A stretch of 64,000 nt of DNA, taken from the NCBI GenBank assembly GCA_963205115.1, contig CAUJHV010000080.1:1-64000 (forward strand), in the 5' to 3' direction. The notes under the pieces were generated by a model, which saw only the letters and a list, made by a program, of their open reading frames with translations, was not told the DNA's origin and ran no database searches. The DNA comes from Pseudomonadota bacterium. Lineage in GTDB: Bacteria > Pseudomonadota > Gammaproteobacteria > Burkholderiales > Burkholderiaceae_C. Position numbers and translations under genes: made by a program. Shown in pieces: positions 4,513-18,042 of the stretch; positions within the stretch are counted from its first letter, which is position 1, and each line of letters begins with the position of its first letter.

Positions 4513-5388
4513 CTAGTCCTTCTGTCGCCCGCCCCGCTCACGACCGCCACGCTTTTCCGGCTCCACGCGCGGATCCCGGTGGCACTCCACGCAGTTCTGG
4601 AAGTCCCGGATGCCTTCCTCGACGTGCTCCTGACGCACCTTGGCTTCCGAGTGCTCGTGGCATCCGTAGCAGGTGTAGCGGCTGTAGTCGTTGTTCTTGT
4701 GGCAAGTCTCGCAAGTGGCTTCGTGGTCGCGGTCCAGCACGAAGAACTTGTTGTGGTCGAAGGTCGCCGGCTTCCAGGCGTCGGTCTTGTGACAGGACTT
4801 GCAGCCGCCTTGGAACTGGCGATGCAGGCGGTCGGTCGGCGCGTTGTGGCAGCTCTCGCACCGGTCCAGCTCGGCCTTGGCCAGCAGCGCGTGGTCAAAG
4901 TGGGCCGGCTTCCAAGCCTTGCTCTCATGGCACTTCGAGCATTCGATCTTCAGATCGCGGTGCACGGTGTCCTTGGGCGCTGCATGGCATGAGGAGCATG
5001 TGTCGCGCACCGCGACCTTCAGCAAGTCGTGCGAGAACGGCTTGCGGCTGCGCTTCGTGAGCTTCGGGCCCTGGTGGTCACTGTGACAAGCCATGCAGTC
5101 CTGCTCGATCAGTTCCTGGTGGAAGGACACCTTGACCGTACGGCTCGGGATCGGCACACCCTTGGTGGTCTTCAAACCAACGTCGGCCGTCGCGTGGCAT
5201 TCGGTGCACCGCTGTGACGATGCGCCGCGCCAGACCGCATGGCAGGCGAAGCAATCGGTGGCCAGCTCTGCATGGCCCTTGACCAGCGGCCCGGGGCTCA
5301 CCATCAGGTGCGGGTAGACAAAGGCCAGCGCCACCAGCACGAGCAGATTGAGCGCGATCACGGCCAGCAGGACGGGGCGCTTCTTCAC
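4513..5388 (-). CDS. Membrane-anchored decaheme c-type cytochrome
   Basis: 291 residues. An N-terminal membrane anchor (about residues 5-25) is followed by exactly ten CxxCH haem-attachment motifs: CFACH, CTECH, CMACH, CSSCH, CSKCH, CESCH, CKSCH, CETCH, CYGCH and CVECH. The repeats are interleaved with FDH/FSHD-type histidine segments that could give the distal haem ligands. This matches the cytochrome c3/NrfB-like multihaem class exported to the periplasm. A GTG start at 5388 is chosen because it overlaps the TGA of the upstream cytochrome b gene (GTGA) and leads straight into the anchor. With the b-type protein and the flavo-iron-sulfur reductase it should form a membrane electron-transfer chain from cytoplasmic reductant to a periplasmic acceptor. 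The final acceptor is unknown. Confidence 0.88.
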   Translation of the reverse strand: MKKRPVLLAVIALNLLVLVALAFVYPHLMVSPGPLVKGHAELATDCFACHAVWRGASSQRCTECHATADVGLKTTKGVPIPSRTVKVSFHQELIEQDCMACHSDHQGPKLTKRSRKPFSHDLLKVAVRDTCSSCHAAPKDTVHRDLKIECSKCHESKAWKPAHFDHALLAKAELDRCESCHNAPTDRLHRQFQGGCKSCHKTDAWKPATFDHNKFFVLDRDHEATCETCHKNNDYSRYTCYGCHEHSEAKVRQEHVEEGIRDFQNCVECHRDPRVEPEKRGGRERGGRQKD

Positions 5389-5969
5389 TTCCAGCCCCAG
5401 AACAGGAAGATGGCCACGATGTGGGCCGTCGCCAGCACGCTGAACGCGAGCGTGATGGGGAAGTGCACGACGCGCCACTGCTTGACCACGTCGAAGGTCA
5501 GGCTGTCCCAGTAGAGGCGGTCCTCGAGCTCCCCTTCGCTCAGGCCGCGATCGCGCATGCGCTGGCGGGCTTCCTCCATGCGCTTGCGCGCGCGGTCCAG
5601 GAGGAACTTGCCCGTCAGTCCGCTGCCCACGTTGATCAGCATCGCCCACACGGCGAGCCATCCGAGGATGGCGTTGAAATGCACACCCGCGTGGACCAGC
5701 ACCAGCAGCGATCCCAGCCAGGCCAGCAACTCGTGCCAGCGCAGCAGTTTCGCCGGATGCCCACTCTGGATGAGCTTGCGCTTGCGCAGCGAGTAGACGG
5801 TTGACCCGATGATCAGCAGGGTGCCGGGAATGCCCAGCCATCGGCCGACCCAGAGCAGGTCGAACAGGTGGAGCATGCCGTCGAGCGCCAACGCAATCAG
5901 CGCCAGTGCGGCAAAACTCCCGAGGAAGGGCAGCACCTCGCGGGTGAGGAGTTTCGGGCGCTGCGGCAT
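5385..5969 (-). CDS. Cytochrome b-type integral membrane protein
   Basis: 194 residues with four predicted membrane helices (about residues 13-31, 45-60, 79-120 as a double span, and 170-190). Candidate haem-binding histidines lie in LVHAGVHF and in VVHFPIT / ATAHIVAIF, the paired-His pattern of b561 or ferric-reductase-like cytochromes. A charged amphipathic loop (RARKRMEEARQRMRDRG) faces the cytoplasm. The ATG at 5969 overlaps the TGA of the reductase gene (TGATG), and the stop overlaps the GTG of the decaheme gene, so all three proteins are translationally coupled and probably made in fixed proportion. By position it would pass electrons from the reductase to the decaheme cytochrome. Confidence 0.78.
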   Translation of the reverse strand: MPQRPKLLTREVLPFLGSFAALALIALALDGMLHLFDLLWVGRWLGIPGTLLIIGSTVYSLRKRKLIQSGHPAKLLRWHELLAWLGSLLVLVHAGVHFNAILGWLAVWAMLINVGSGLTGKFLLDRARKRMEEARQRMRDRGLSEGELEDRLYWDSLTFDVVKQWRVVHFPITLAFSVLATAHIVAIFLFWGWK

Positions 5970-7213
5970 CAGGCCTCCAGCACGACGGCCGACGTGGGCC
6001 GACCCACGCACAGCAGGCAATGGCCCGGCGCCACGTCGTGGTCGGGCACGTGATCGTATTGCACCGTACCTTCGAGCAGGCGGGTCTCGCAGCTTCCGCA
6101 GCCACCCGAACGGCAGCCGGATTCGACGGCAACGCCGTGCCGCTCCGCAAAGTCGAGCAGCGAGGCGTCTCGGCCCTCCCACGCCAGCGTTCGGCCGGAG
6201 CGCTGGAACCGCACGTCGAGTTCAGCGGCCAGCGGAGCCGAGGCTTCAGGCGTCCCGGGCAGCTTGACGGAAGCCGGCCCAAAGGCCTCGTAGTGGATGT
6301 CTGGCAGCGGCACACCCCAGGCCGCGAGCGCGGGCACCAGCGACTCCATCATCGCCGGCGGACCGCAGACATAGAACTGGTGGCGTCCGTGCGGCAGGGT
6401 GCGCCGCATCAGTTCGACATCGACATGGCCGCGGTGTTGGAAATCGCGACCTTCGACGTCGGCTACGCCGGGCCGGCTGTAGACGATGTTCAGGCGCAGT
6501 GCTGGATGCTTCGCGGCGATCTGCTCGAGGCCTTGCTTGAAGGCCTGCTCCTGGCTGTTGCGCAGTCCGTAGTAGAGGTGCAACCTGCGCTGTGGCTGTT
6601 CGTCCACGCACCAGCGCAGCATGCTCATCATTGGCGTGATGCCGATGCCCCCGCCGATCAGCACCACCGGCACGTCCGGGTCGGGGTCGATGAAGAAGTG
6701 CCCGGCGGGGGCCTTCAGGCGCAGGATGTCGCCGACCTGCACATGGTCGTGGAAGTGGTTGGAGGACAGGCCCGGTGTGAACTCGGGGTGATCCGGCGGC
6801 GCGGGCACGCGCTTGATCGTCACGCGGTAGTACGACGGATCGGGACGTTCGGACAACGAGTAGCAGCGCGTGATGGCGCGCGGCACTGCAGTGGCTTGCG
6901 AACCCTGCGGTCCGACCTCCAGCGTGAAGGTCAGGAACTGCCCGGGCTTGAATGCCGGCAGGGGCTGGCCGTCGACAGGCTGCAAGTGGAATGAACACTG
7001 CGACTGCGCCGCATCCTCGAAGGCGCGCTGCACGACGCGAAACTCCCGCCACCCGACCCAGGCACCCTTCGACGGCGCCGCCCCCTCGAGCCCGGCGGTC
7101 GTGGGTGGGATTGCCGCCAACGCCCGTCGACGCATCACCGACACGCCGATCCCTGCCATCAACTGCAGGAGCAGCGCGGCAACGATCAATCCGAGCAGTT
7201 CAACGGCGGTCAT
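5969..7213 (-). CDS. Membrane-anchored FAD/NAD(P)H oxidoreductase with C-terminal 2Fe-2S ferredoxin domain
   Basis: 414 residues in three parts. A single N-terminal membrane helix spans about residues 5-25. A ferredoxin-reductase module follows: CYSLSERP resembles the FAD-binding RxYS region, GGGIGITPMMSML is the nucleotide-binding turn, and FYVCGPPAMM is the C-terminal NAD(P) motif. A plant-type 2Fe-2S domain closes the protein, with CRSGGCGSC and a distant CLLC supplying the four cysteines. The order resembles the reductase components of oxygenases and flavocytochromes. Fused ferredoxin, membrane tether and direct coupling to cytochrome b and c genes suggest an NAD(P)H-dependent electron input to a respiratory branch rather than to a soluble oxygenase. 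No oxygenase gene is nearby. Confidence 0.85.
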   Translation of the reverse strand: MTAVELLGLIVAALLLQLMAGIGVSVMRRRALAAIPPTTAGLEGAAPSKGAWVGWREFRVVQRAFEDAAQSQCSFHLQPVDGQPLPAFKPGQFLTFTLEVGPQGSQATAVPRAITRCYSLSERPDPSYYRVTIKRVPAPPDHPEFTPGLSSNHFHDHVQVGDILRLKAPAGHFFIDPDPDVPVVLIGGGIGITPMMSMLRWCVDEQPQRRLHLYYGLRNSQEQAFKQGLEQIAAKHPALRLNIVYSRPGVADVEGRDFQHRGHVDVELMRRTLPHGRHQFYVCGPPAMMESLVPALAAWGVPLPDIHYEAFGPASVKLPGTPEASAPLAAELDVRFQRSGRTLAWEGRDASLLDFAERHGVAVESGCRSGGCGSCETRLLEGTVQYDHVPDHDVAPGHCLLCVGRPTSAVVLEA

Positions 7214-7448
7214 CGATCAGGTTCGCATCACACACGCCGCCCCAATGGCGCCTTGCGAGCGGGTTCAATCGATTCTGGGCAGATGCCTCTCGCAGCTGCT
7301 TGATGGCGATCAACGGGGGCGGTGTGATCTCTCGCCCGGCAGCGCCATGCCGACGACTGGCGCATGCACGGCCAGGATGGAATCCCACGAGGTGATCGAG
7401 ACACCCATGGCAACGCCGGCGCTCTTCGGGGATGTTTGAGGTTCTGGG

Positions 7449-7678
7449 TCATTCAGTTGATGTGCCGCTGATGTCAGGGAAGGCCCCGAGGATGCGGCAG
7501 GGCGGCATGTCCTTGCCCAGCTTCTCCGTCATCGCGTGCTGGACATCGATGTCACTGAGGATGCCGAAGCCTTCCGCCTTCAGCGCGGCCTTGGTCTTCA
7601 CCATGGCCTCGTCGAACGACAGGCCCGTGAGCGTCGTGGTGAAGCCGTACTTCGGGAACCTCCGGGTCGGTTGAATCT
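7449..7678 (-). pseudogene. DUF302 protein fragment
   Basis: Reading leftward from just after the arsA stop, one frame gives FPKYGFTTTLTGLSFDEAM, then KAALKAEGFGILSDIDVQ and CRILGAFPDISGTSTE before a TGA at 7449-7451. The YGF...L.FDEA...LK.EGFG.L..IDV pattern and the CRILGA turn are the N-terminal half of a DUF302 domain. Intact family members are about 130 residues; here only about 70 remain. No convincing ATG or ribosome site precedes the fragment, and the C-terminal half is missing. The upstream edge nearly touches the arsA stop. I call it a truncated pseudogene, though a short product cannot be excluded. Confidence 0.65.
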
Positions 7679-9697
7679 TCAGGCGGGAACAGCGGTGGCG
7701 GAGGCTGGCGCACAGACCAGTGGCGACAACTCACCGAGGCCGATCGGGGGTACGGACAGCCATGGCAGCACGTAGAGCCGCCGCGCCAGACCTGCGGACA
7801 TGCGCTCGATCTGCCGGTGTTCGCCGGTCAGCCGGGCCTGCAGCAAGGGGTCGTGCGTGCCCGCCGCCAACACACTCTTGTTGAGCACCCAGGCATAGGG
7901 CTCGATGCAGGCGCGCCGCAGGTCGTCCTGCAAGGCAGCCGCCTGCGACACCGGCGTCACTTCGGGCAGTGTCACGAGAATGATCTTCGTGTACGCCGCA
8001 TCCTGCAGCCGCATCAGCGGTGTGACCACGCGCGCGGCGCCCTGCCCTTCGAATGCGCGGGTCATTTGCCGGTGGTAGGCGCCGGTTGCATCCATCAACA
8101 GCATCGAGTGCCCGGTGGGTGCGGTGTCCAGCACCACGAAGGCGCTGCGGCCTTCGCTGACGATGCGTGAGAAGGCGTGGAACACCGCCACCTCCTCGGT
8201 GCACGGCGACCGCAGGTCCTCCAGCAACAGCGCCTGTTCTTGCGCGTCGAGATGGGGCGACTTCGCGGCCATGATCTTGTCGATGTAGCGCTGCGTCTCG
8301 ACCTTCGGGTCGATGCGGCTCACCTTCAATCCCGGCAGATCGCCGTTCAGCGTGGCAGCGAGGTGGGCCGCGGGGTCGGTGGTGCTCAGGTGCACCGTTT
8401 GACCGCGCTGCACGAGCCCGATCGCCAGTGCCGCGGCGATGGTGGTCTTGCCGACACCTCCCTTGCCCATCACCATGATCAGGCCATGGCCAGCCCCTGC
8501 CAGGTCATCGGCCAGCGCAGCCAGACCCGGGAGCGGGCCGCTTTCCCACGTCTGTGCTGCGGCATGCGGGGTCCGTGGTGCGGCGCCAGGGATCAGCAGC
8601 GCACGCAGGGCCGGCAGGCCGACGGTATCGAAGGCGCGCAGCGGTACCCGGTCCTGGGGCAGTTCACGCAGCGGTGCAGGTATGGCGGCCAGGGCCTGCC
8701 GGCCCAGCTCTTCGATGGCGCAGGCCACGGCGTCACCGCGGTCGCTCGCACGGAAGATGCCATTGATCGCCAGGCGTTGGTTCTCCAGGCCCAGTTCACG
8801 CAGCTCGACCGAGGTGCGCGCCGCTTCGGCCATCGCCCCGCGGTCGGGCCGGGTGACCAGCACCACGGTGGTCTGTGCCGGATCGCTCAAGGCGCTGAGC
8901 GCGGCCTTGAACCGGACTTCCTGCATCTTCAGCCCTGAGTGCGGCCCTAGGCACGATGCACCCCGGTCGTTGCCTTCCAGGAAACCGGTCCAGGCCTTGG
9001 GCAGGCTGAGCAGCCGCAAGGTGTGCCCGGTCGGCGCGGTGTCGAAGACGATGTGGTCCCAGGCTTCTGCACCATCGGCGAGCAGCGACGAGAACTCGTC
9101 GAAGGACGCGATTTCGGTCGTGCAGGCGCCGGAGAGCTGCTCGCGAACCGTCGACAGCTCCTCCGCGCTCGCATGCGCGCCCATCTGCGCCAGCACGCGC
9201 TGGCGGTAGGACTCGGCCGCGTTGTCGGGATCGATGTTCAACACCGACAGGCCGGGCGCACCCGGCACCGGAACGGGCGTATTGCGCAAGTCGATGCCCA
9301 GCATCTCGTCGAGGTTCGATGCGGCATCGGTGCTGACCAGCAGCACCTTCTTGCCGGCGTCCGCCAGGGTCAGCGCGGCGGCGGTGGACAGCGAGGTCTT
9401 GCCCACGCCGCCCTTGCCGGTGAAGAAGAGATGCCGGGTGGGGTTTTCAACAAACCCGACGCGGGCCGGCTTGAACCAGACCTTCACGGATTCACGCGAT
9501 GGGATGCCACCACTGTGGACCACCTGGTCGGCAATGACGACGGCCGGCGTGGCGTGCACCCCGTAGGCCCTGATCTCGTCATGGCTCTCGACCTTGACGA
9601 TCTCGACTTCGATGCCTGAGTCGCGAGCGGTGCGTTCGATGACGCCGATGGTGCTGCGGCACTTGCTGCAGCCGGACCCCAGAACCTTGATCTTCAT
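7679..9697 (-). CDS. arsA: Thioredoxin-fold domain fused to ArsA arsenite-pump ATPase
   Basis: 672 residues. Residues 1-78 form a small thioredoxin-like domain: MKIKVLGSGCSKC with Cys10/Cys13, and a cis-Pro turn ATP at 49-51, like the archaeal small redox-active disulfide proteins. The rest is a two-half ArsA: P-loop GKGGVGKTS at about 94, DTAPTGHTLRLL at about 219, second P-loop GKGGVGKTT at about 411, and a second DTAPTGHS. The three arsenite-binding cysteines of E. coli ArsA (113, 172, 422) have counterparts in SGACTTEI (192), ASCLGP (249) and RSPCTEE (499), each shifted by 77-79 residues, as expected for an added N-terminal domain. The ATG at 9697 follows a GAGGA site. No arsB, arsD or arsR is in the window, so its membrane partner must lie elsewhere or differ. 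A Get3-like role is less likely given the metal cysteines. Confidence 0.9.
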   Translation of the reverse strand: MKIKVLGSGCSKCRSTIGVIERTARDSGIEVEIVKVESHDEIRAYGVHATPAVVIADQVVHSGGIPSRESVKVWFKPARVGFVENPTRHLFFTGKGGVGKTSLSTAAALTLADAGKKVLLVSTDAASNLDEMLGIDLRNTPVPVPGAPGLSVLNIDPDNAAESYRQRVLAQMGAHASAEELSTVREQLSGACTTEIASFDEFSSLLADGAEAWDHIVFDTAPTGHTLRLLSLPKAWTGFLEGNDRGASCLGPHSGLKMQEVRFKAALSALSDPAQTTVVLVTRPDRGAMAEAARTSVELRELGLENQRLAINGIFRASDRGDAVACAIEELGRQALAAIPAPLRELPQDRVPLRAFDTVGLPALRALLIPGAAPRTPHAAAQTWESGPLPGLAALADDLAGAGHGLIMVMGKGGVGKTTIAAALAIGLVQRGQTVHLSTTDPAAHLAATLNGDLPGLKVSRIDPKVETQRYIDKIMAAKSPHLDAQEQALLLEDLRSPCTEEVAVFHAFSRIVSEGRSAFVVLDTAPTGHSMLLMDATGAYHRQMTRAFEGQGAARVVTPLMRLQDAAYTKIILVTLPEVTPVSQAAALQDDLRRACIEPYAWVLNKSVLAAGTHDPLLQARLTGEHRQIERMSAGLARRLYVLPWLSVPPIGLGELSPLVCAPASATAVPA

Positions 9698-9986: not shown

Positions 9987-11645
9987 TCAGGCACTCACGC
10001 GGTAGTTGCGCATCAGCCCCGAATCCTCGTGTTCGAGCATGTGGCAGTGGTACAGGAACAGGCCCGGATAGTCCCGGAACTGCATCAACAGCCGCACACG
10101 TTCGCCGGGCATCAGGAGAACCGTGTCCTTCCAGCCGTCATCGACGAGACCGGCGCTGACGGTGGCGTATTCGCGGGCGTACCGGCGGGCCACGGTTCGA
10201 GACAGCACGCGGAACTGCAGGCCATGGACATGCATCGAGTGGGGCATGGCCATGCCCATCATGGAGCCCTGCGCGTCGTTGCGGAACTCCCAGATCTCGT
10301 GCGTGCCCAGCTTGACAGTCTCCAGCTCGCTTGCGGCCAGCATGTCGAAGCTCTCGCCGTTGATGCCCCAGACCATCATGCCCATGGTGGGTTCGAAGAC
10401 CTTGGGATGCGACACGTTGACCGCCACGCGGGGATCGGCGGGTGCGATCGTCGACAACACGGACGGCGGCTCGCCAGGAAGCGCAGGCCCGGTATCCATC
10501 CGGAAGCGCTGCACCTCGAACGCGGCGCCGTCAGCCAGGCCGCGCCCGGCGCCGCCCATCATTCCGCCCATGCCGCTGTCGAACGCGAGGCTGCGCAGCA
10601 CCGCCTCGCTGCCCGCGGGACGGCTGCCGAAGTCGACCCACAGATCCACACGCTCGGCCGGCGCGAGCATCACGTACGCACGCTGCACAGGCCGCGCCAG
10701 CAGGCCACCGTCGTTGCCGATCACGTGCAATGGCGCACCGTCGCTCCACGCGAGCTTGAAGCTGCGGGTATTGGATGCGTTGAGCATCCGCAGCCGGTAG
10801 GGGCGACGGGCGACTTCGCGCACGGCGGGCATGGCGCCGTTGACGAGGATCTGGTCACCCAGCATGCCCATCATGGCCGCCATCATCGAGCCCATGCCGC
10901 CGCCCATCATGCCGCGCATGCCACCGCCCATCATCCCGCCCATCCCGCCCTCGCCGCGCCCCATCATTCCGCGCGACGGCGTCCCGGCGCCCTCGAGCGT
11001 GCGGCCGAGATAGACGAACTGGTTGTCGCCATCGAATGCCCGGTCCTGGATGACGAGCGGCACATCCTGTGCACCGCTGGGCAGGCCCAGCGCAGCCTCC
11101 TCGTCGTCGCTCACGATGAACAGGCCCGCCAGCCCGGCGTAGACCTGCGCGCCCGTGCGGCCATGGGGATGCGGGTGGAACCAGTAGCAGCCGGCGCGGT
11201 TGACTACGGTGAAGGTATAGACATAGCGCTCGCCTGGCGCGATGGCGAAACGCGGGTGCCCGTCCATCGCTTCGGGCACGTGCAGGCCGTGCCAATGGAT
11301 GATGGTGGGCTCACCCAGCCCGTTGACCAGGTCGATGCGCACGCGCTGGCCGCGCCGCACACGGATGATGGGACCGAGGTAGCTGCCGGCCATGTCCTCC
11401 ACGGCCGCGCGGTCACCCTGCAGCAGGCGCGTGCGGTAGCGCCACACCCGCGTGGGCGCGCCGGGCCGGATCGACACCTCGCCCGGTTCGGCATGCAGTT
11501 CCAGGTGCAGGTCGGGACGTGCCGTCTCCTGGCCCTGGGCGGGCCAGGGTGAAAGTCCCCAGGCCATGCCCGCCGCGCCTGCTGCTGCGCGAGCCGATCG
11601 AAGCAGCAGTGCCCGTCTGTCGGCGTCGGGTTCGGATGCGTGCAT
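9987..11645 (-). CDS. Tat-exported multicopper oxidase with Met-rich insert
   Basis: About 552 residues. The N-terminus has a twin-Arg signal (DADRRALLLRS) and an Ala-rich hydrophobic stretch. All four copper motifs are present: HWHG (117-120), HPHPHG (157-162), HSMHVHG near 490 and HCHMLEHED...M near the C-terminus, so the blue and trinuclear sites look intact. Between the first and second cupredoxin domains lies an insert with 14 methionines in 35 residues (about 227-261). It is comparable to the Met-rich segment of CueO, which admits Cu(I) in that enzyme. A periplasmic cuprous oxidase or copper-tolerance role is therefore the best inference. The start at 11645 is taken because GGAG precedes it; an earlier in-frame codon at 11687 lacks support. 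It lies about 290 bp upstream of the thioredoxin-ArsA gene on the same strand. Confidence 0.9.
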   Translation of the reverse strand: MHASEPDADRRALLLRSARAAAGAAGMAWGLSPWPAQGQETARPDLHLELHAEPGEVSIRPGAPTRVWRYRTRLLQGDRAAVEDMAGSYLGPIIRVRRGQRVRIDLVNGLGEPTIIHWHGLHVPEAMDGHPRFAIAPGERYVYTFTVVNRAGCYWFHPHPHGRTGAQVYAGLAGLFIVSDDEEAALGLPSGAQDVPLVIQDRAFDGDNQFVYLGRTLEGAGTPSRGMMGRGEGGMGGMMGGGMRGMMGGGMGSMMAAMMGMLGDQILVNGAMPAVREVARRPYRLRMLNASNTRSFKLAWSDGAPLHVIGNDGGLLARPVQRAYVMLAPAERVDLWVDFGSRPAGSEAVLRSLAFDSGMGGMMGGAGRGLADGAAFEVQRFRMDTGPALPGEPPSVLSTIAPADPRVAVNVSHPKVFEPTMGMMVWGINGESFDMLAASELETVKLGTHEIWEFRNDAQGSMMGMAMPHSMHVHGLQFRVLSRTVARRYAREYATVSAGLVDDGWKDTVLLMPGERVRLLMQFRDYPGLFLYHCHMLEHEDSGLMRNYRVSA

Positions 11646-11892
11646 GGCTGACTCCGTGGGTGAAGGCACGCAGGACCGTGCGAACACGACCCGGCGCGCC
11701 TTGACTTAGAGGCGCTCTGCGGCCCTGTGTTCCGGATTTTCCCGACGCCCCGACACGCGGCTGATCTCTGCCTGCCGGTATCGACAGCGAGCCCACGCGT
11801 GCGACGCAAGGCTCGCCAAGCCGACCAAGGCGGTCCTGTCTTCGGGCGCAGCGCCACGGTGCGGCGGAAGCGCCCGATCGCACCTGACCGGA

Positions 11893-13641: not shown

Positions 13642-13884
13642 TCATCGCGTCTGCATCGGCGCCACCACACCGGGAGCCGTGACAGGCGCCGAGGCGGCAG
13701 CCAGACGCCATTCGGCCGCGCGCTTCTGCGCCAGCACGTAAGGCGAGGGCTGGCCGGCGATGGCCATGGGATGGTCATCGGCCAGCGAAACCACGCCAGC
13801 GAACAGCGCGAAGGTCACACCGGCAGCGGCCGCGGCCGCGCCGAGCTTCACGGCGAGGCGCTGAAGCGTTGGATGTGCGTACAT
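13642..13884 (-). CDS. Small predicted membrane protein
   Basis: 80 residues beginning MYAHPTLQRLAVKLGAAAAA, with one hydrophobic helix (about residues 15-37) and a soluble tail carrying SPYVLAQKRAAEWRLAAAS. A GGGGGAG ribosome site precedes the ATG at 13884, which supports real translation. I do not recognise a family. It diverges from the ECF sigma factor gene with about 270 bp between the starts. It might be a target or membrane partner of that regulator, but nothing in the sequence proves it. Confidence 0.55.
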   Translation of the reverse strand: MYAHPTLQRLAVKLGAAAAAAGVTFALFAGVVSLADDHPMAIAGQPSPYVLAQKRAAEWRLAAASAPVTAPGVVAPMQTR

Positions 13885-14153
13885 GGTGGACTCCCCCTGA
13901 GTGGCGGGCCGCGCAACATGCGTTGCCCTCGATTGATCAGACGCCGCCACGGGCAAGAACCGGACACTGCGTGGGTCGATCGCACCGGTGTGCCGGCTCG
14001 TTTGTCATCACAACTGTGGAGAGCGTCCGCGGGCGTGAACGTGCGCACCCCGCTTCTCCACAGTTCTGTAGATGCCCCGTGGCCTTGACAGCCCTCCTGA
14101 CCCAGTGCCCGGACTACGATCGAGTCGACTGTCTGGTATTGGGGGGACAGCAC

Positions 14154-14708
14154 ATGCCTGAGATCACAGCGCTTCTGCAGCGGGTGAACACCGGGGAACA
14201 CGGTGCACGCGACGAGCTCTTCCATGCGGCCTATGGCGAACTGCGCAAGCTCGCGCACTCGCGCCTGTTCGATGGCGGGCGCAACACCTACCTGAACACC
14301 ACGGCACTGGTCCACGAGTCCTACCTGCGCATCATCCGCGGCAACGAACTGCGCGCGGAAGACCGCCGGGCCTTCTTCGCCTATGCCTCGCGCGTGATGC
14401 GCTCGGTCGTTGTCGACGCCGTGCGCGAACGCCAGGCACAACGCCACGGCGGTGATCTGGACCGTCAGACACTCGACACCCAGCTGCTCGAGAGCCTGCC
14501 TGGCGCCGAGCAGGAGCTGCTGCACGTGCACGAGGCCCTGCAGGCCCTGGCCGAGGCCGAGCCGCGCCTGGCGCAGGTGGTGGAGATGCGCTACTTCGGT
14601 GGCTACACGGAAGCGGAGATCGCGCAGGCCCTGGACCTGAGCGAACGCACCGTGCGCCGCGACTGGGACAAGGCGCGATTGCTGCTGATGGTCATGCTGG
14701 GGGCGTGA
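14154..14708 (+). CDS. ECF-type RNA polymerase sigma factor
   Basis: 184 residues. Region 2 is seen as ELRKLAHSRLF and RAFFAYASRVMRSVVVDAVRER, and region 4 as VEMRYFGGYTEAEIAQAL followed by LSERTVRRDWDKARLLL, a helix-turn-helix. The pattern (TALVHESYLRI, RAFFAYASRVMR) is that of the ECF subgroup usually found beside a PknB-type kinase rather than an anti-sigma factor. The ATG at 14154 is preceded by GGGGGGA. Downstream after about 270 bp is a large Ser/Thr kinase with C-terminal repeats, so phosphorylation-linked control of this sigma factor is likely. No zinc anti-sigma gene is adjacent. Confidence 0.92.
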   Translation: MPEITALLQRVNTGEHGARDELFHAAYGELRKLAHSRLFDGGRNTYLNTTALVHESYLRIIRGNELRAEDRRAFFAYASRVMRSVVVDAVRERQAQRHGGDLDRQTLDTQLLESLPGAEQELLHVHEALQALAEAEPRLAQVVEMRYFGGYTEAEIAQALDLSERTVRRDWDKARLLLMVMLGA

Positions 14709-14730
14709 GGGGCGGCCGGGCGGCGGCGCC

Positions 14731-14868
14731 ATGTCCGCTTTGAGGAGTCGCTTTCGTCTGGACCTCTGCAGCATGTCACCTCAACACGGCTTCGAGGAGA
14801 ACACCATGCGCCAGATCAGCGCCCGACACAGCCTGGCCATGGGCCACATCCGGGAGGAGCATGCGTAG
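14731..14868 (+). CDS. Possible small ORF between sigma factor and kinase
   Basis: A 45-codon frame runs through this gap. An internal ATG at 14806 has a consensus GAGGAG ribosome site and would give a 20-residue peptide (MRQISARHSLAMGHIREEHA). No homology is recognised. It may be a leader peptide, a decayed gene or chance. It is listed only because the ribosome site is unusually good for a non-gene. Confidence 0.2.
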   Translation: MSALRSRFRLDLCSMSPQHGFEENTMRQISARHSLAMGHIREEHA

Positions 14869-14982
14869 ACTGGCCCTTGGTTCGGCCCGTGCGGTCCTGT
14901 CGCCTGACCCGCCCTGCGATGCGGTCCGCGGCCAGATCCGGCCACGGGAGCGCCAGGCGACATCCTGAGCGTCGGAGGTTCC

Positions 14983-17900
14983 GTGCCTGCGCGTCCGGAC
15001 ACACGTCTAACGACGACCGAGCTATCGGCCCTGAGCCAGCTGCTCGACGAACTGCTGGAACTGGACGCCGCCGCGCAGGCCGACCGGCTCGCCGGACTCG
15101 ATGGTGCGCAGCGGCCACTGGAGCCCCTCCTGCGGCAGATGCTGGCCAACCACAGCAGCGGCCGCGATGCCGGATTCCTCGCCGAATGGCCCGCGCTGGA
15201 TGCGGCACCCCACTCAGCCGGCTCGCCCGACGTGGCGAAAGCCGGCGAACGCATCGGCCCCTATCGGCTGATCCGCGCGATCGGCCAGGGCGGCATGGGC
15301 AGCGTCTGGCTGGCCGAGCGCGCCGACGGCAGCTTCAAGCGGCAGGTGGCGCTCAAACTGCCGCGCCTGGCCTGGGGCTCGGGCCTGGGTGAGCGCATGG
15401 CGCGCGAACGCGAGATCGGCGCGATGCTGGAGCACCCAAACATCGCGCGGCTGTACGACGCGGGTGTCGACGATATCGGCCGGCCGTACATCGCGATGGC
15501 CTACATCGAAGGCAGTTCCATCGACCTGTACTGCCGCGACAAGCAGCTGCCGGTGCGCGAACGCGTGCAGCTCCTCGTGCAGGTGGCCCGCGCCGTGGCC
15601 TATGCACACGGCCGGCTCGTGGTGCACCGCGACCTCAAACCCTCCAACGTACTGGTCACGGAAGGCGGACAGGCGCACCTGCTGGACTTCGGCATCGCCA
15701 AGCTGGTGGACGAGGCGGCCGAAGGACAGGCCACCCTGACACAGGCGCAGGACAGTGTGCTGACACCGCAATATGCCGCGCCGGAGCAACTGCGCGGTGA
15801 ACCGGTGACGGTGCAGACGGATGTGTATGGGTTGGGACTGCTGGCGTACGAGGTGTTGACCGGTCGGGCACCGCACCAACCCAAGGGAAAGGATCGACGC
15901 AGCCTCGAGGAGGTCGTGCTCGAAGGCCAGATCCGCCCGGCCAGCAGTGCCTGCAGCGACCCGAAGACCGCGCGCGCATTGGCTGGGGATATCGACGCGG
16001 TGCTTGCCGCGTGTCTACGCACCGAGGCGGCCATGCGGTATCCGTCAGCGGCAGATGTCGCGGACGATCTCGAGAGGCACCTGAGATCAGAGCCTGTTCG
16101 GGCGGTCGCGCCCCGTTTGGCGTACCGGCTGTCACGTGCAGTCCGGCGACACCGAGTGGCCTTGATCGTCAGCACATCGCTCGTGGGCGCGGTCGTCACG
16201 GTCGGCACGGTCTGGATGCATCAACGCAGTGAAGCCTCGGTCGCAGCGGAGCGGGAACACGACATCAAGCAGTTCGTGGCCGAGATGTTCCGGTTCAACG
16301 TGCGCGGCATGGGCGCAACCCCAGGTCGTACAGCGCCATCCCCGAGCCTCTTGCTGACCCAGGGTGCCGGCCTGATCGAGCAGCGATTCCAAGGTCGACC
16401 TGACGTGCAGGTCGAGCTCTTCGCGATGGTTGGCCAGGTATTCGGTGAAATGGGCGCTCGCGCGATGCAGATCGACTACCTCAGCCGACGCTTGTCGCTT
16501 CTGGAGCCCGCCAGGATCAGCCGCACAAGCCGAGCCGCGGCACAACTGGAATTGGCAGAGGCCTTGCTGGGTGACCACCGCTCCGCTGAAGCCCTGGCGC
16601 TGCTGGACGCCGCGCTGCCGCATACCCAAGAGCGCAGTCGCCAGCGCACGCGAGCGCACTTGCTGCGCGCACGCGCGTTGATTGCATCGGGTGCTTTTGA
16701 GAGTGCAGCACCTGTTCTTGACTTGTGCGACAGATTGCTCGCCGGCCAGCGGGACCCCAGCGCGGAGTCCGCATGGCTGCAAGCGCTTCGGGCAGAAGCA
16801 CTGGTCCGCAACAACCGATACGAAGATGCACCTGCGGTGTATGAGCGCGCCGTCCAGTCCGCTCTTGCCGCAGAGGGCGATCTGTCCACAACAGCCATCG
16901 AGATCCGGCTATCGGCGGTACCCTGGATCAGGCAGGTTGGCGGGGCATACATCCAAGACTTCTTGGAACCGGCCGTAGCCGCGTTGGAGAAGCTGGGGGG
17001 GCCGGCCATGGCACGAGCGGCTCTCGAGACCGCGCGTGATGCCGCTTTCCGGCCGTCGAAGCACACCACACAGCCAGAAAGGTTGGCACGCGTGTCGCGC
17101 GCGATCGAACAGCTCAGGATCATGAGCGATGTCGTACCCCGTGACGTCACACTGGAAGCGGAGTTCTGGCGCGGCGAGGTCTTGCGAAGATACGGACAAC
17201 ATGCATTGGCAGATGCAATCTTCAAGCGCACCGAATCAACGGTATGGAACAGCGTGCGGCATCCGTACTACCGCTTTGGCATCGCGACCTCTATCGGACT
17301 CACCGCCATGGTGCGCGGCGACTCAACTGAGGCCGATCGATGGCTGAAGCTCCGCTTGGCTGAACGGCGGTCGGCAGGACGCGAAAACCATCCGTACGTC
17401 GCCAACGACTACCGGTTTCTGGCGGAAAACCTGATCATGGCTGGCCAGTTTGAGGAGGCTGAGAGGCAGCTCGCAGCAGCACCCAGCATCGACAGCATCC
17501 GTGTCTCGACACTCAACCCGGCGCGATACCGAAATCTCATCGCTGAAACTCGGGCTCGCCTGCATCTCGAGCGCGGCGATCCGCAACGCGCCCTGGACAC
17601 GCTGCCATCGCGCGCATTCGAGAAGCAGGACGGGGAAGCCAACTTCGGCTTGTTCACGGCCCCCGCCTTGATACGCGGAGAGGCTCTGTGCCACATGGGA
17701 CGTCACTTGGCCGGACTGGAGCTCATCGAATTCAGCCTCGCACAACTGGATGGGGACCACGATGAGCAGCACCCGGCAGTCGCCAGGCTGAAAGCGGCAC
17801 TGGCTTCGTGCGCATGGCGGGCCGGTCAAACGCAAAAGGCTCGCGAGATGGCTGATCAGGCCGAGCGTGCCTTCCAGTCTCAACCCGTCGTCAGCCTCTT

Positions 17901-18042
17901 CTTCACGCGCCCGCTGGCCGAGTTTCGGCGCCTGTCTCAGCCGGGTACCCGCAAGGCGAATCAGTCGTCGACGGCAAGTACACGCGCCAGAGGTAACGCG
18001 CAGTTGAGGCCACCCTCCGATCGCATGGACCGAAATCAGTAG
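14983..18042 (+). CDS. Serine/threonine protein kinase with membrane helix and C-terminal repeat domain
   Basis: 1019 residues. The kinase domain runs from about 90 to 375: Gly loop GQGGMGSVW at about 101, catalytic Lys in VALKLP, HRDLKPSN at about 214, DFGIAK at about 234 and APEQLRGE, so it should be active. A transmembrane helix at about 393-412 separates it from a roughly 600-residue extracytoplasmic part with helical, TPR-like repeats (for example AQLELAEALLGDHRSAEAL). A GTG start with GGAGG nine bases upstream is used. It follows the ECF sigma gene, the usual pairing for this sigma subgroup. The repeat half probably senses or binds a partner. Codon and base composition become less GC-biased towards the 3' end. 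Confidence 0.9.
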   Translation: MPARPDTRLTTTELSALSQLLDELLELDAAAQADRLAGLDGAQRPLEPLLRQMLANHSSGRDAGFLAEWPALDAAPHSAGSPDVAKAGERIGPYRLIRAIGQGGMGSVWLAERADGSFKRQVALKLPRLAWGSGLGERMAREREIGAMLEHPNIARLYDAGVDDIGRPYIAMAYIEGSSIDLYCRDKQLPVRERVQLLVQVARAVAYAHGRLVVHRDLKPSNVLVTEGGQAHLLDFGIAKLVDEAAEGQATLTQAQDSVLTPQYAAPEQLRGEPVTVQTDVYGLGLLAYEVLTGRAPHQPKGKDRRSLEEVVLEGQIRPASSACSDPKTARALAGDIDAVLAACLRTEAAMRYPSAADVADDLERHLRSEPVRAVAPRLAYRLSRAVRRHRVALIVSTSLVGAVVTVGTVWMHQRSEASVAAEREHDIKQFVAEMFRFNVRGMGATPGRTAPSPSLLLTQGAGLIEQRFQGRPDVQVELFAMVGQVFGEMGARAMQIDYLSRRLSLLEPARISRTSRAAAQLELAEALLGDHRSAEALALLDAALPHTQERSRQRTRAHLLRARALIASGAFESAAPVLDLCDRLLAGQRDPSAESAWLQALRAEALVRNNRYEDAPAVYERAVQSALAAEGDLSTTAIEIRLSAVPWIRQVGGAYIQDFLEPAVAALEKLGGPAMARAALETARDAAFRPSKHTTQPERLARVSRAIEQLRIMSDVVPRDVTLEAEFWRGEVLRRYGQHALADAIFKRTESTVWNSVRHPYYRFGIATSIGLTAMVRGDSTEADRWLKLRLAERRSAGRENHPYVANDYRFLAENLIMAGQFEEAERQLAAAPSIDSIRVSTLNPARYRNLIAETRARLHLERGDPQRALDTLPSRAFEKQDGEANFGLFTAPALIRGEALCHMGRHLAGLELIEFSLAQLDGDHDEQHPAVARLKAALASCAWRAGQTQKAREMADQAERAFQSQPVVSLFFTRPLAEFRRLSQPGTRKANQSSTASTRARGNAQLRPPSDRMDRNQ

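Follow-up and report, generated by a model that had tools for sequence, protein, structure and literature searches.

A thioredoxin-like domain fused in frame to an ArsA ATPase without ArsD in Burkholderiales

Architecture of the fused gene

The 64 kb window studied here (positions 1 to 64,000 of contig CAUJHV010000080.1, assembly GCA_963205115.1, a member of Burkholderiaceae_C) carries a gene in which an ArsA-type arsenical pump-driving ATPase is preceded, in the same reading frame, by a thioredoxin-like domain. Positions 7679-9697 form one minus-strand gene, with its ATG at 9697 and its stop codon at 7679-7681, that encodes a product of 672 amino acids (P0001); the plus strand over this interval is interrupted by stops. 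Pfam assigns residues 1-75 to Thioredoxin_3 (72.3 bits, cut-off 24.8) and two stretches to ArsA_ATPase (271.5 bits), while the NCBIfam equivalog model for the arsenical pump-driving ATPase, TIGR04291, matches residues 86-647 with 704.3 bits (cut-off 650). The domain also exceeds the cut-off of 62 for TIGR00412, the MTH895/ArsE family, with 74.9 bits when taken alone and 69.7 bits in the whole protein; the ArsD model PF06953 has no match in the 672 residues. Going by its model name, TIGR00412 would correspond to redox-active disulfide protein 2. An earlier note on this DNA had described a thioredoxin-like domain in frame with ArsA, and both family databases bear this out; it had the coordinates right and left the (minus) strand unstated. 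The Cys10, Cys13 and cis-proline that it named are present, in a domain of 75-77 rather than 78 residues.

The cysteines of the fused protein lie at residues 10, 13, 192, 249, 326, 499, 597 and 662. Three of them, 192, 249 and 499, presumably pair with C113, C172 and C422 of Escherichia coli ArsA; together with the TIGR04291 match, their presence agrees with the earlier description of a two-half ArsA that keeps its arsenite cysteines. They are invariant in alignment A2, a statement that holds for its 55 rows only, hand-picked from 74 usable ArsAs. Of 103 ArsAs, 38 gave no hit to at least one of the three cysteine motifs in a strict motif search; some of the 38 are cut or broken and others differ only around the cysteine; L101, for instance, was missed, yet has C499 in A2. 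According to the available part of PMC2963123, C113, C172 and C422 are important in the E. coli enzyme.

AlphaFold2 models the domain alone as a thioredoxin fold with a mean predicted local distance difference test (pLDDT) score of 95, and the whole protein with a pLDDT of 81.8 and a predicted template modelling score of 0.74. The solved fold closest to the domain model is MtH895 (PDB 1ilo; template modelling (TM) score 0.78). ArsD (PDB 3mwh) ranks 23rd among the best 50 structures listed, with a TM score of 0.61, amid ordinary thioredoxins and no closer than those. By sequence, too, MtH895 and other thioredoxins are the closest solved relatives, and for the whole-protein model the best structural matches are ArsA structures. 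In the window copy, the stretch from residue 73 to the P-loop of ArsA has no in-frame ATG, GTG or TTG, which speaks against an internal start yielding ArsA alone there; 8 of the 26 fusions described below differ in having one or more in-frame start codons at the junction, and L214 and L217 have an ATG.

Table 1. Features of the fused gene and of the gene fragment behind it (positions in the window).
Feature	Position	Strand	Basis or remark
Fused thioredoxin-ArsA gene, 672 aa	7679..9697	-	Open reading frame, Pfam, NCBIfam
N-terminal thioredoxin-like domain, residues 1-77 (Thioredoxin_3/TIGR00412)	9467..9697	-	Pfam, NCBIfam, AlphaFold2
Cys10-Ser-Lys-Cys13 motif (CSKC)	9659..9670	-	C10, K12 and C13 invariant in 26/26 fusions
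Pro51, presumed cis-proline (TPA)	9545..9547	-	T50, P51 and A52 invariant in 26/26 fusions
Short linker, about residues 75-86, without in-frame start codon	9440..9475	-	Junction codons; pLDDT 71 at residues 71-80
ArsA first half, residues 87-366, P-loop GKGGVGKT	8600..9439	-	Pfam
Cys192	9122..9124	-	ArsA motif search and alignment A2
Cys249	8951..8953	-	ArsA motif search and alignment A2
ArsA second half, about residues 404-647, second P-loop	7757..8488	-	Pfam, NCBIfam
Cys499	8201..8203	-	ArsA motif search and alignment A2
Truncated DUF302 gene, immediately following the fused gene	7482..7649	-	Full-length copies there in some relatives

Recurrence and conservation of the fusion

In a set made up of the own genome and 60 relatives, full-length fusions were found in four genomes of the same genus (the window's own, G017, G019 and G018) and fusions cut by contig ends in two further relatives (G029 and G010). 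A scan of a genome collection gave at least 12 more (L099-L103 and L105-L111) among its best 80 matches, from records of Rubrivivax, Piscinibacter, Ideonella, Pelomonas and Pandoraea and from further records labelled Rhodoferax, Burkholderiaceae, Comamonadaceae, Burkholderiales and Oxalobacteraceae. When 299 genomes were drawn from the family, ten, the own genome included, held the fusion, counted as a match that extends over A1 positions 1 to 139 or 140; of the nine besides the own genome, one duplicates the L109 contig, which leaves eight new sequences. A draw of 369 genomes from the class gave the fusion once, in the own genome, and set against 10 of 299 in the family this rules out a class-wide feature. 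A phage origin was also rejected: ten phage records had matches (five listed), all below 60% identity.

The fused domains aligned number 26, all distinct and from 26 separate loci in Burkholderiales, and an artefact of assembly or a frameshift is rejected on that ground. The thioredoxin-ArsA fusion is thus confirmed as genuine, and as a combination of two known parts that recurs. Columns invariant in all 26 include G9, C10, K12, C13, T50, P51, A52, H61 and W74, so the cysteine pair, whose conservation among fusions had been put forward as a check, is kept throughout; 22 of the 26 domains have no cysteine beyond it. The fusions carry CxKC and TPA, whereas CANC (14/17) and TPG (14/17) predominate in the free-standing relatives from the fetched loci, the remaining cysteine motifs being CTNC, CAKC (in a Verrucomicrobia record) and CSKC (L118). 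The domain of L118, whose ArsA is broken, groups among the fused ones. In the domain tree, built on 77 columns only, with a bootstrap that had not settled and a midpoint root, a branch with support 98/87 separates all 26 fused domains and L118 from the remaining domains. The fused domains are most simply read as sharing a single joining event. Ratios of non-synonymous to synonymous substitution rates (dN/dS) in the 22 closest pairs, from 16 fusions of an 18-fusion set (L107 and L111 were left out for linker length), were 0.12-0.43 for the thioredoxin-like domain and 0.12-0.29 for ArsA, indicating purifying selection.

Loss of the domain and its likely source

In five relatives, arsA still starts with the opening residues of the domain, from which the frame runs on into ArsA. 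The deleted residues are about 18-81 in L006, 11-57 in L036 and L043, 11-64 in L112 and 7-78 in L037, and the ArsA frame is open in all five genes (in L006 up to the contig end). These represent at least four distinct in-frame deletions, L036 and L043 being counted once because they share breakpoints. Four unfused ArsAs of the family draw (L190, L191, L195 and L198), whose match to the fused N-terminus starts at residue 55-67, may be additional cases of a remnant left by domain deletion. In relatives, this ArsA type is also found in broken or fragmentary form (L035 on G018:C2, L042 on G030:C133, L052 on G033:C4, L113, L118 and L216).

The careful ArsA tree has 59 rows, eight fusions having been added to an earlier 55-row selection from 103 loci; L149, L119, L165 and L089, with long or doubtful branches, and the partial L050 were left out. 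One clade (98/97) contains 23 fusions, the 5 remnants and 9 unfused ArsAs, and two fusions (L107 and L215) fall in another clade beside the unfused L126. On this tree, a split of the rows into fused or remnant and all others requires 7 changes, a count that alone cannot separate gain from loss; it is the remnants that show the direction to be loss. Both trees fit a history in which the genes were joined once and the domain was then lost several times, L107 and L215 having possibly been transferred; two joinings at the level of ArsA are also conceivable. The domain is, judging from these genes, dispensable; since several close relatives discarded it, it is probably helpful but non-essential.

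A probable source is seen in an unfused arrangement on an Ideonella dechloratans plasmid, with the order regulator-arsI-arsC-arsC-acr3-sigma-permease-trx-arsA, where trx and arsA are 7 bp apart and family searches identify the permease as ArsP_1 and the small gene as Thioredoxin_3. Free-standing copies adjoin ArsP permease genes in five relatives (G034, G025, G023, G017 and G036), and stand beside ArsP in four loci that also hold arsA (L148, L215, L216 and L049). We infer that the fusion likely arose from an arsP-trx cassette directly upstream of arsA, where a short deletion would join the genes.

Such an origin raises the possibility that adjacent trx and arsA genes were joined by a small deletion with co-expression as the only consequence, the domain serving targets of its own with little effect on ArsA. 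The neighbouring pair in Ideonella, the copies beside ArsP, which could have their own targets there, and the variety of in-frame deletions are all in keeping with this. However, the fused domains group apart from the free-standing ones and differ from most of them in the cysteine motif, the domain is under purifying selection, and ArsP is missing from five of the six fused genomes searched, the ArsP gene of the sixth, G017, adjoining a second, free-standing copy. We therefore regard mere co-expression as unlikely.

The ArsA type lacks ArsD with or without the fused domain

The earlier note had proposed that the fused domain replaces ArsD, delivering a thiol-bound metalloid to ArsA in cis, and had suggested looking for arsD in genomes with the fusion. 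PF06953 is absent from all 15 of those searched (0/6 in the relatives set, 0/9 in the family draw), the own genome (89.7% complete) among them. It is equally absent from the 28 genomes that carry the same ArsA type unfused: 0/10 in the relatives set (nine ArsAs and one genome with an ArsA fragment only) and 0/18 in the family draw, where the ArsAs are 68-89% identical to the window's. Absence of arsD from the fused genomes does not, then, point to replacement, and the ArsD-less state is wider than the fusion. ArsD does occur in four genomes of the relatives set, the ones in which ArsA shares only about 52% identity with the window's. Of the 103 loci (at least two contigs were entered twice, and many flanks are no longer than 7 kb), 11 carry arsD. 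The ArsAs that it adjoins show 50-53% identity, and no ArsA at 59% or above has it as a neighbour; in L177 it adjoins the second ArsA of the locus (52%), and the ArsA of L174 (50%) has no arsD. The arsD-linked ArsAs (three rows) are split from the window's group in the ArsA tree with support 100/100. The ten unfused or fragment genomes of the relatives set also have no TIGR00412 match anywhere; other unfused genomes, in the family draw, do carry free-standing copies of that type.

A profile comparison with hhalign links the domain to ArsD itself at 90.2% over residues 40-76 (37 columns, the cis-proline half), compared with 0.8% and 0.1% for DUF302 controls. The cysteine half lies outside the match, and the window domain lacks the Cys12-Cys13-Cys18 site present in 11 of 11 fetched ArsDs, having C10-x-x-C13 and no third cysteine. 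An As(III) entry site in the CxKC domain, its reduced dithiol accepting As(III) from glutathione and handing it to Cys192/249/499 much as ArsD does elsewhere, would amount to a one-polypeptide chaperone-ATPase evolved independently of ArsD. The shared thioredoxin fold, the remote profile link, the invariant cysteine pair and the lack of arsD in fused genomes speak for such a chaperone, but arsD is missing without the fusion too, most fused domains have two cysteines only, the fold is closer to MtH895 than to ArsD, and the domain has been lost in G032, G031, G022 and G002 without any ArsD or TIGR00412 match to take its place. We consider a chaperone in cis improbable. The ArsD replacement proposed earlier is thus partly supported: the missing arsD, the conserved cysteine pair and the remote resemblance stand, while the unfused genomes, the absent ArsD cysteine site, the nearer fold of MtH895 and the deletions tell against it, and the fused domain appears to replace ArsD in no simple sense. 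Reduction of the metal site, which the same note gave as its alternative, fits better.

Pump partners and ars gene context

A scan of the window with 14 query proteins (arsD, arsR, arsC, arsH, arsI, arsJ, arsP, acr3, an aquaporin and others, with one or two queries each and ArsB not among them) matched only the ArsA, the thioredoxin-like domain and the DUF302 fragment at E ≤ 1e-4. The own genome has acr3 together with arsC and arsI on contig C6 (L091, G000:C6:43000-59000, 5742-8067), where the relatives search found no arsA. The absence of a pump is therefore true of the window only: of the earlier statement that arsD, arsB and arsR are lacking, the parts on arsD and arsR hold for the window, arsB was outside the queries, and a pump gene is present elsewhere in the genome. 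ArsB was rejected as the pump, the own genome giving one partial match of 24.7 bits (cut-off 22.2) over model positions 230-419 of 423, which was not counted.

At 7 of the 26 fused loci (L100, L101, L103, L109, L209, L211 and L214), acr3 lies in the same ars cluster. The order in L101 is arsR-arsI-arsC-arsC-acr3-fusion; L100 has the same order with arsH and DUF302 in addition, its acr3 frame stopping after about residue 281 of 360. The fusion is convergent to arsH-acr3-arsC-arsR in L103 and L109, and acr3 is directly upstream of it in L209, L211 and L214. The Acr3, ArsH, ArsI and ArsJ queries exceed their family cut-offs and the ArsR-type regulator that of HTH_metalloreg; the ArsC query has the low-molecular-weight phosphatase fold and stays below the arsenate-reductase cut-offs. 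Acr3 over the cut-off was found in 9 of 15 fused genomes (2/6 in the relatives set, 7/9 in the family draw) and, among the 28 genomes where this ArsA type is unfused, in 18 (7/9 and 11/18; the fragment-only genome lies outside the 18), so its presence does not follow the domain. In G018, an ArsR-type regulator, an ArsC-like phosphatase and an aquaporin-type channel adjoin a fragmentary second arsA. By its gene context, the fusion belongs to arsenic resistance.

That the domain re-reduces a low-molecular-weight ArsC, coupling As(III) production to the ATPase that removes As(III), is improbable to a still greater degree than the alternatives above: all seven acr3-linked fusion loci match the ArsC query, and the available part of PMC2963123 has Castillo and Saier proposing an ArsC-related role for redox-active disulfide protein 2, but the same ArsC type adjoins unfused ArsAs, the own-genome ArsC scores 59.1 bits against the 174.3 required by the thioredoxin-type model, and the seven loci are a minority of the 26.

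Neighbouring genes

DUF302 genes follow the fusion in L033, L034, L099, L100, L102, L210, L211 and, as a partial copy, L217, and follow an unfused ArsA in L114. As copies stand behind both fused and unfused ArsAs, this ArsA type seems to have in DUF302 a companion that has gone unrecognised. The broken ArsA copies L035, L042 and L052 still adjoin DUF302. Beside the fused gene, positions 4513-7213 (minus strand) encode a multihaem c-type cytochrome, a protein with no Pfam match that looks membrane-like by eye, and a 2Fe-2S/NAD reductase. Just upstream of it, 9987-11687 (minus strand) encodes a multicopper oxidase with a methionine-rich stretch, for which the CueO model is best, below its cut-off. 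Further away, 13869-18042 (plus strand) holds a gene for an extracytoplasmic function sigma factor followed by one for a Ser/Thr kinase with tetratricopeptide repeats.

A possible redox arm for ArsA

The reading that we prefer, at a probability of about 45%, is that of an ArsD-independent ArsA that powers Acr3 and carries an optional, ArsE-type dithiol redox arm in cis. An ArsE-type thioredoxin-like gene would have been joined, in frame, to the 5' end of arsA, in an ArsA clade not found with ArsD here. ArsA would bind As(III) through Cys192, Cys249 and Cys499, hydrolyse ATP and energise the Acr3 carrier, which in the own genome is encoded on another contig. In what is the least certain step, the CSKC dithiol would keep the three thiols of the arsenite site reduced and exchangeable; re-reducing an oxidised arsenical at that site would be another redox task open to it. 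Electrons for the dithiol could come from the general thioredoxin or glutathione systems. A redox arm is favoured because the family is thioredoxin-like, the motif is CxxC and loss is tolerated, and keeping the arsenite site reduced, as a putative disulfide reductase, is the most likely role of the CSKC domain. Some lineages may have deleted the domain because it improves a pump that works without it.

Several observations weigh against a redox arm that serves an Acr3-linked ArsA. The domain evolves faster than ArsA (median ratio of non-synonymous to synonymous differences, pN/pS, 0.372 against 0.227 over 120 pairs). Six of the 15 fused genomes (G019, G018, G029, G010, G251 and G241) have no Acr3 over the cut-off; the assemblies of G029 and G010 are split into 730 and 860 contigs, whereas G018 and G241 are 99-100% complete. 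G018 (99% complete) has neither Acr3 over the cut-off nor a match to ArsB or ArsP, and thus no recognised pump; for G241, the finding concerns Acr3 alone. Finally, the in-frame ATG just before ArsA in L214 and L217 means that ArsA may be made alone in those two fusions.

Comparison with known systems

The ArsA part shares with the solved enzymes (TIGR04291; PDB 1f48 from E. coli, 9nbl and 9nbo from L. ferriphilum) the two P-loop halves, the three arsenite cysteines and a score over the equivalog cut-off, at 47-50% identity. It differs from them in the extra N-terminal domain and in belonging to an ArsA group not found beside arsD here. With MTH895/ArsE (TIGR00412), the domain has in common a score over the family cut-off, a CxxC at the start of helix 1, a proline before strand 3 and 1ilo as its nearest structure; unlike the free-standing proteins, most of which have CANC and TPG, it is fused to ArsA and has CxKC and TPA. 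ArsE is reportedly part of the nitro-reducing ArsEFG system, said to go back to Chen, Zhang and Rosen in 2019. The accessible portion of PMC9144182 credits ArsE with resistance to organic arsenicals, and that of PMC2963123 lists redox-active disulfide protein 2 as a separate gene of ars operons (Castillo and Saier). ArsD (PF06953; PDB 3mwh) shares the thioredoxin-like fold and the remote profile match of the cis-proline half, whereas the window domain has no PF06953 match and no Cys12-Cys13...Cys18 site, the cysteines that ArsD uses according to the available part of PMC12607644. From what is available of PMC6205960, arsD and arsA are nearly always adjacent and act as a unit.

The ArsA type described here went without arsD in all 43 genomes searched (16 + 27), acquired a built-in thioredoxin-like domain and then lost it several times. 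Close pairs of ArsAs with and without the domain form a natural experiment, in which what a dithiol partner adds to the ArsA motor could be tested, and they bear on the reason for which only some ArsAs are paired with a chaperone. A full-text literature search, for which subscription papers such as that on ArsEFG were mostly beyond reach, found no description of a thioredoxin-ArsA fusion. Among the ars fusions given in the available part of PMC6205960 (ArsR-ArsC, Acr3-ArsC, AqpS-ArsC and ArsN-ArsC/ArsD), two arsenic resistance functions are likewise united in one polypeptide, and none of those there joins a thioredoxin-like domain to ArsA. Both domains of the fused protein belong to catalogued families.

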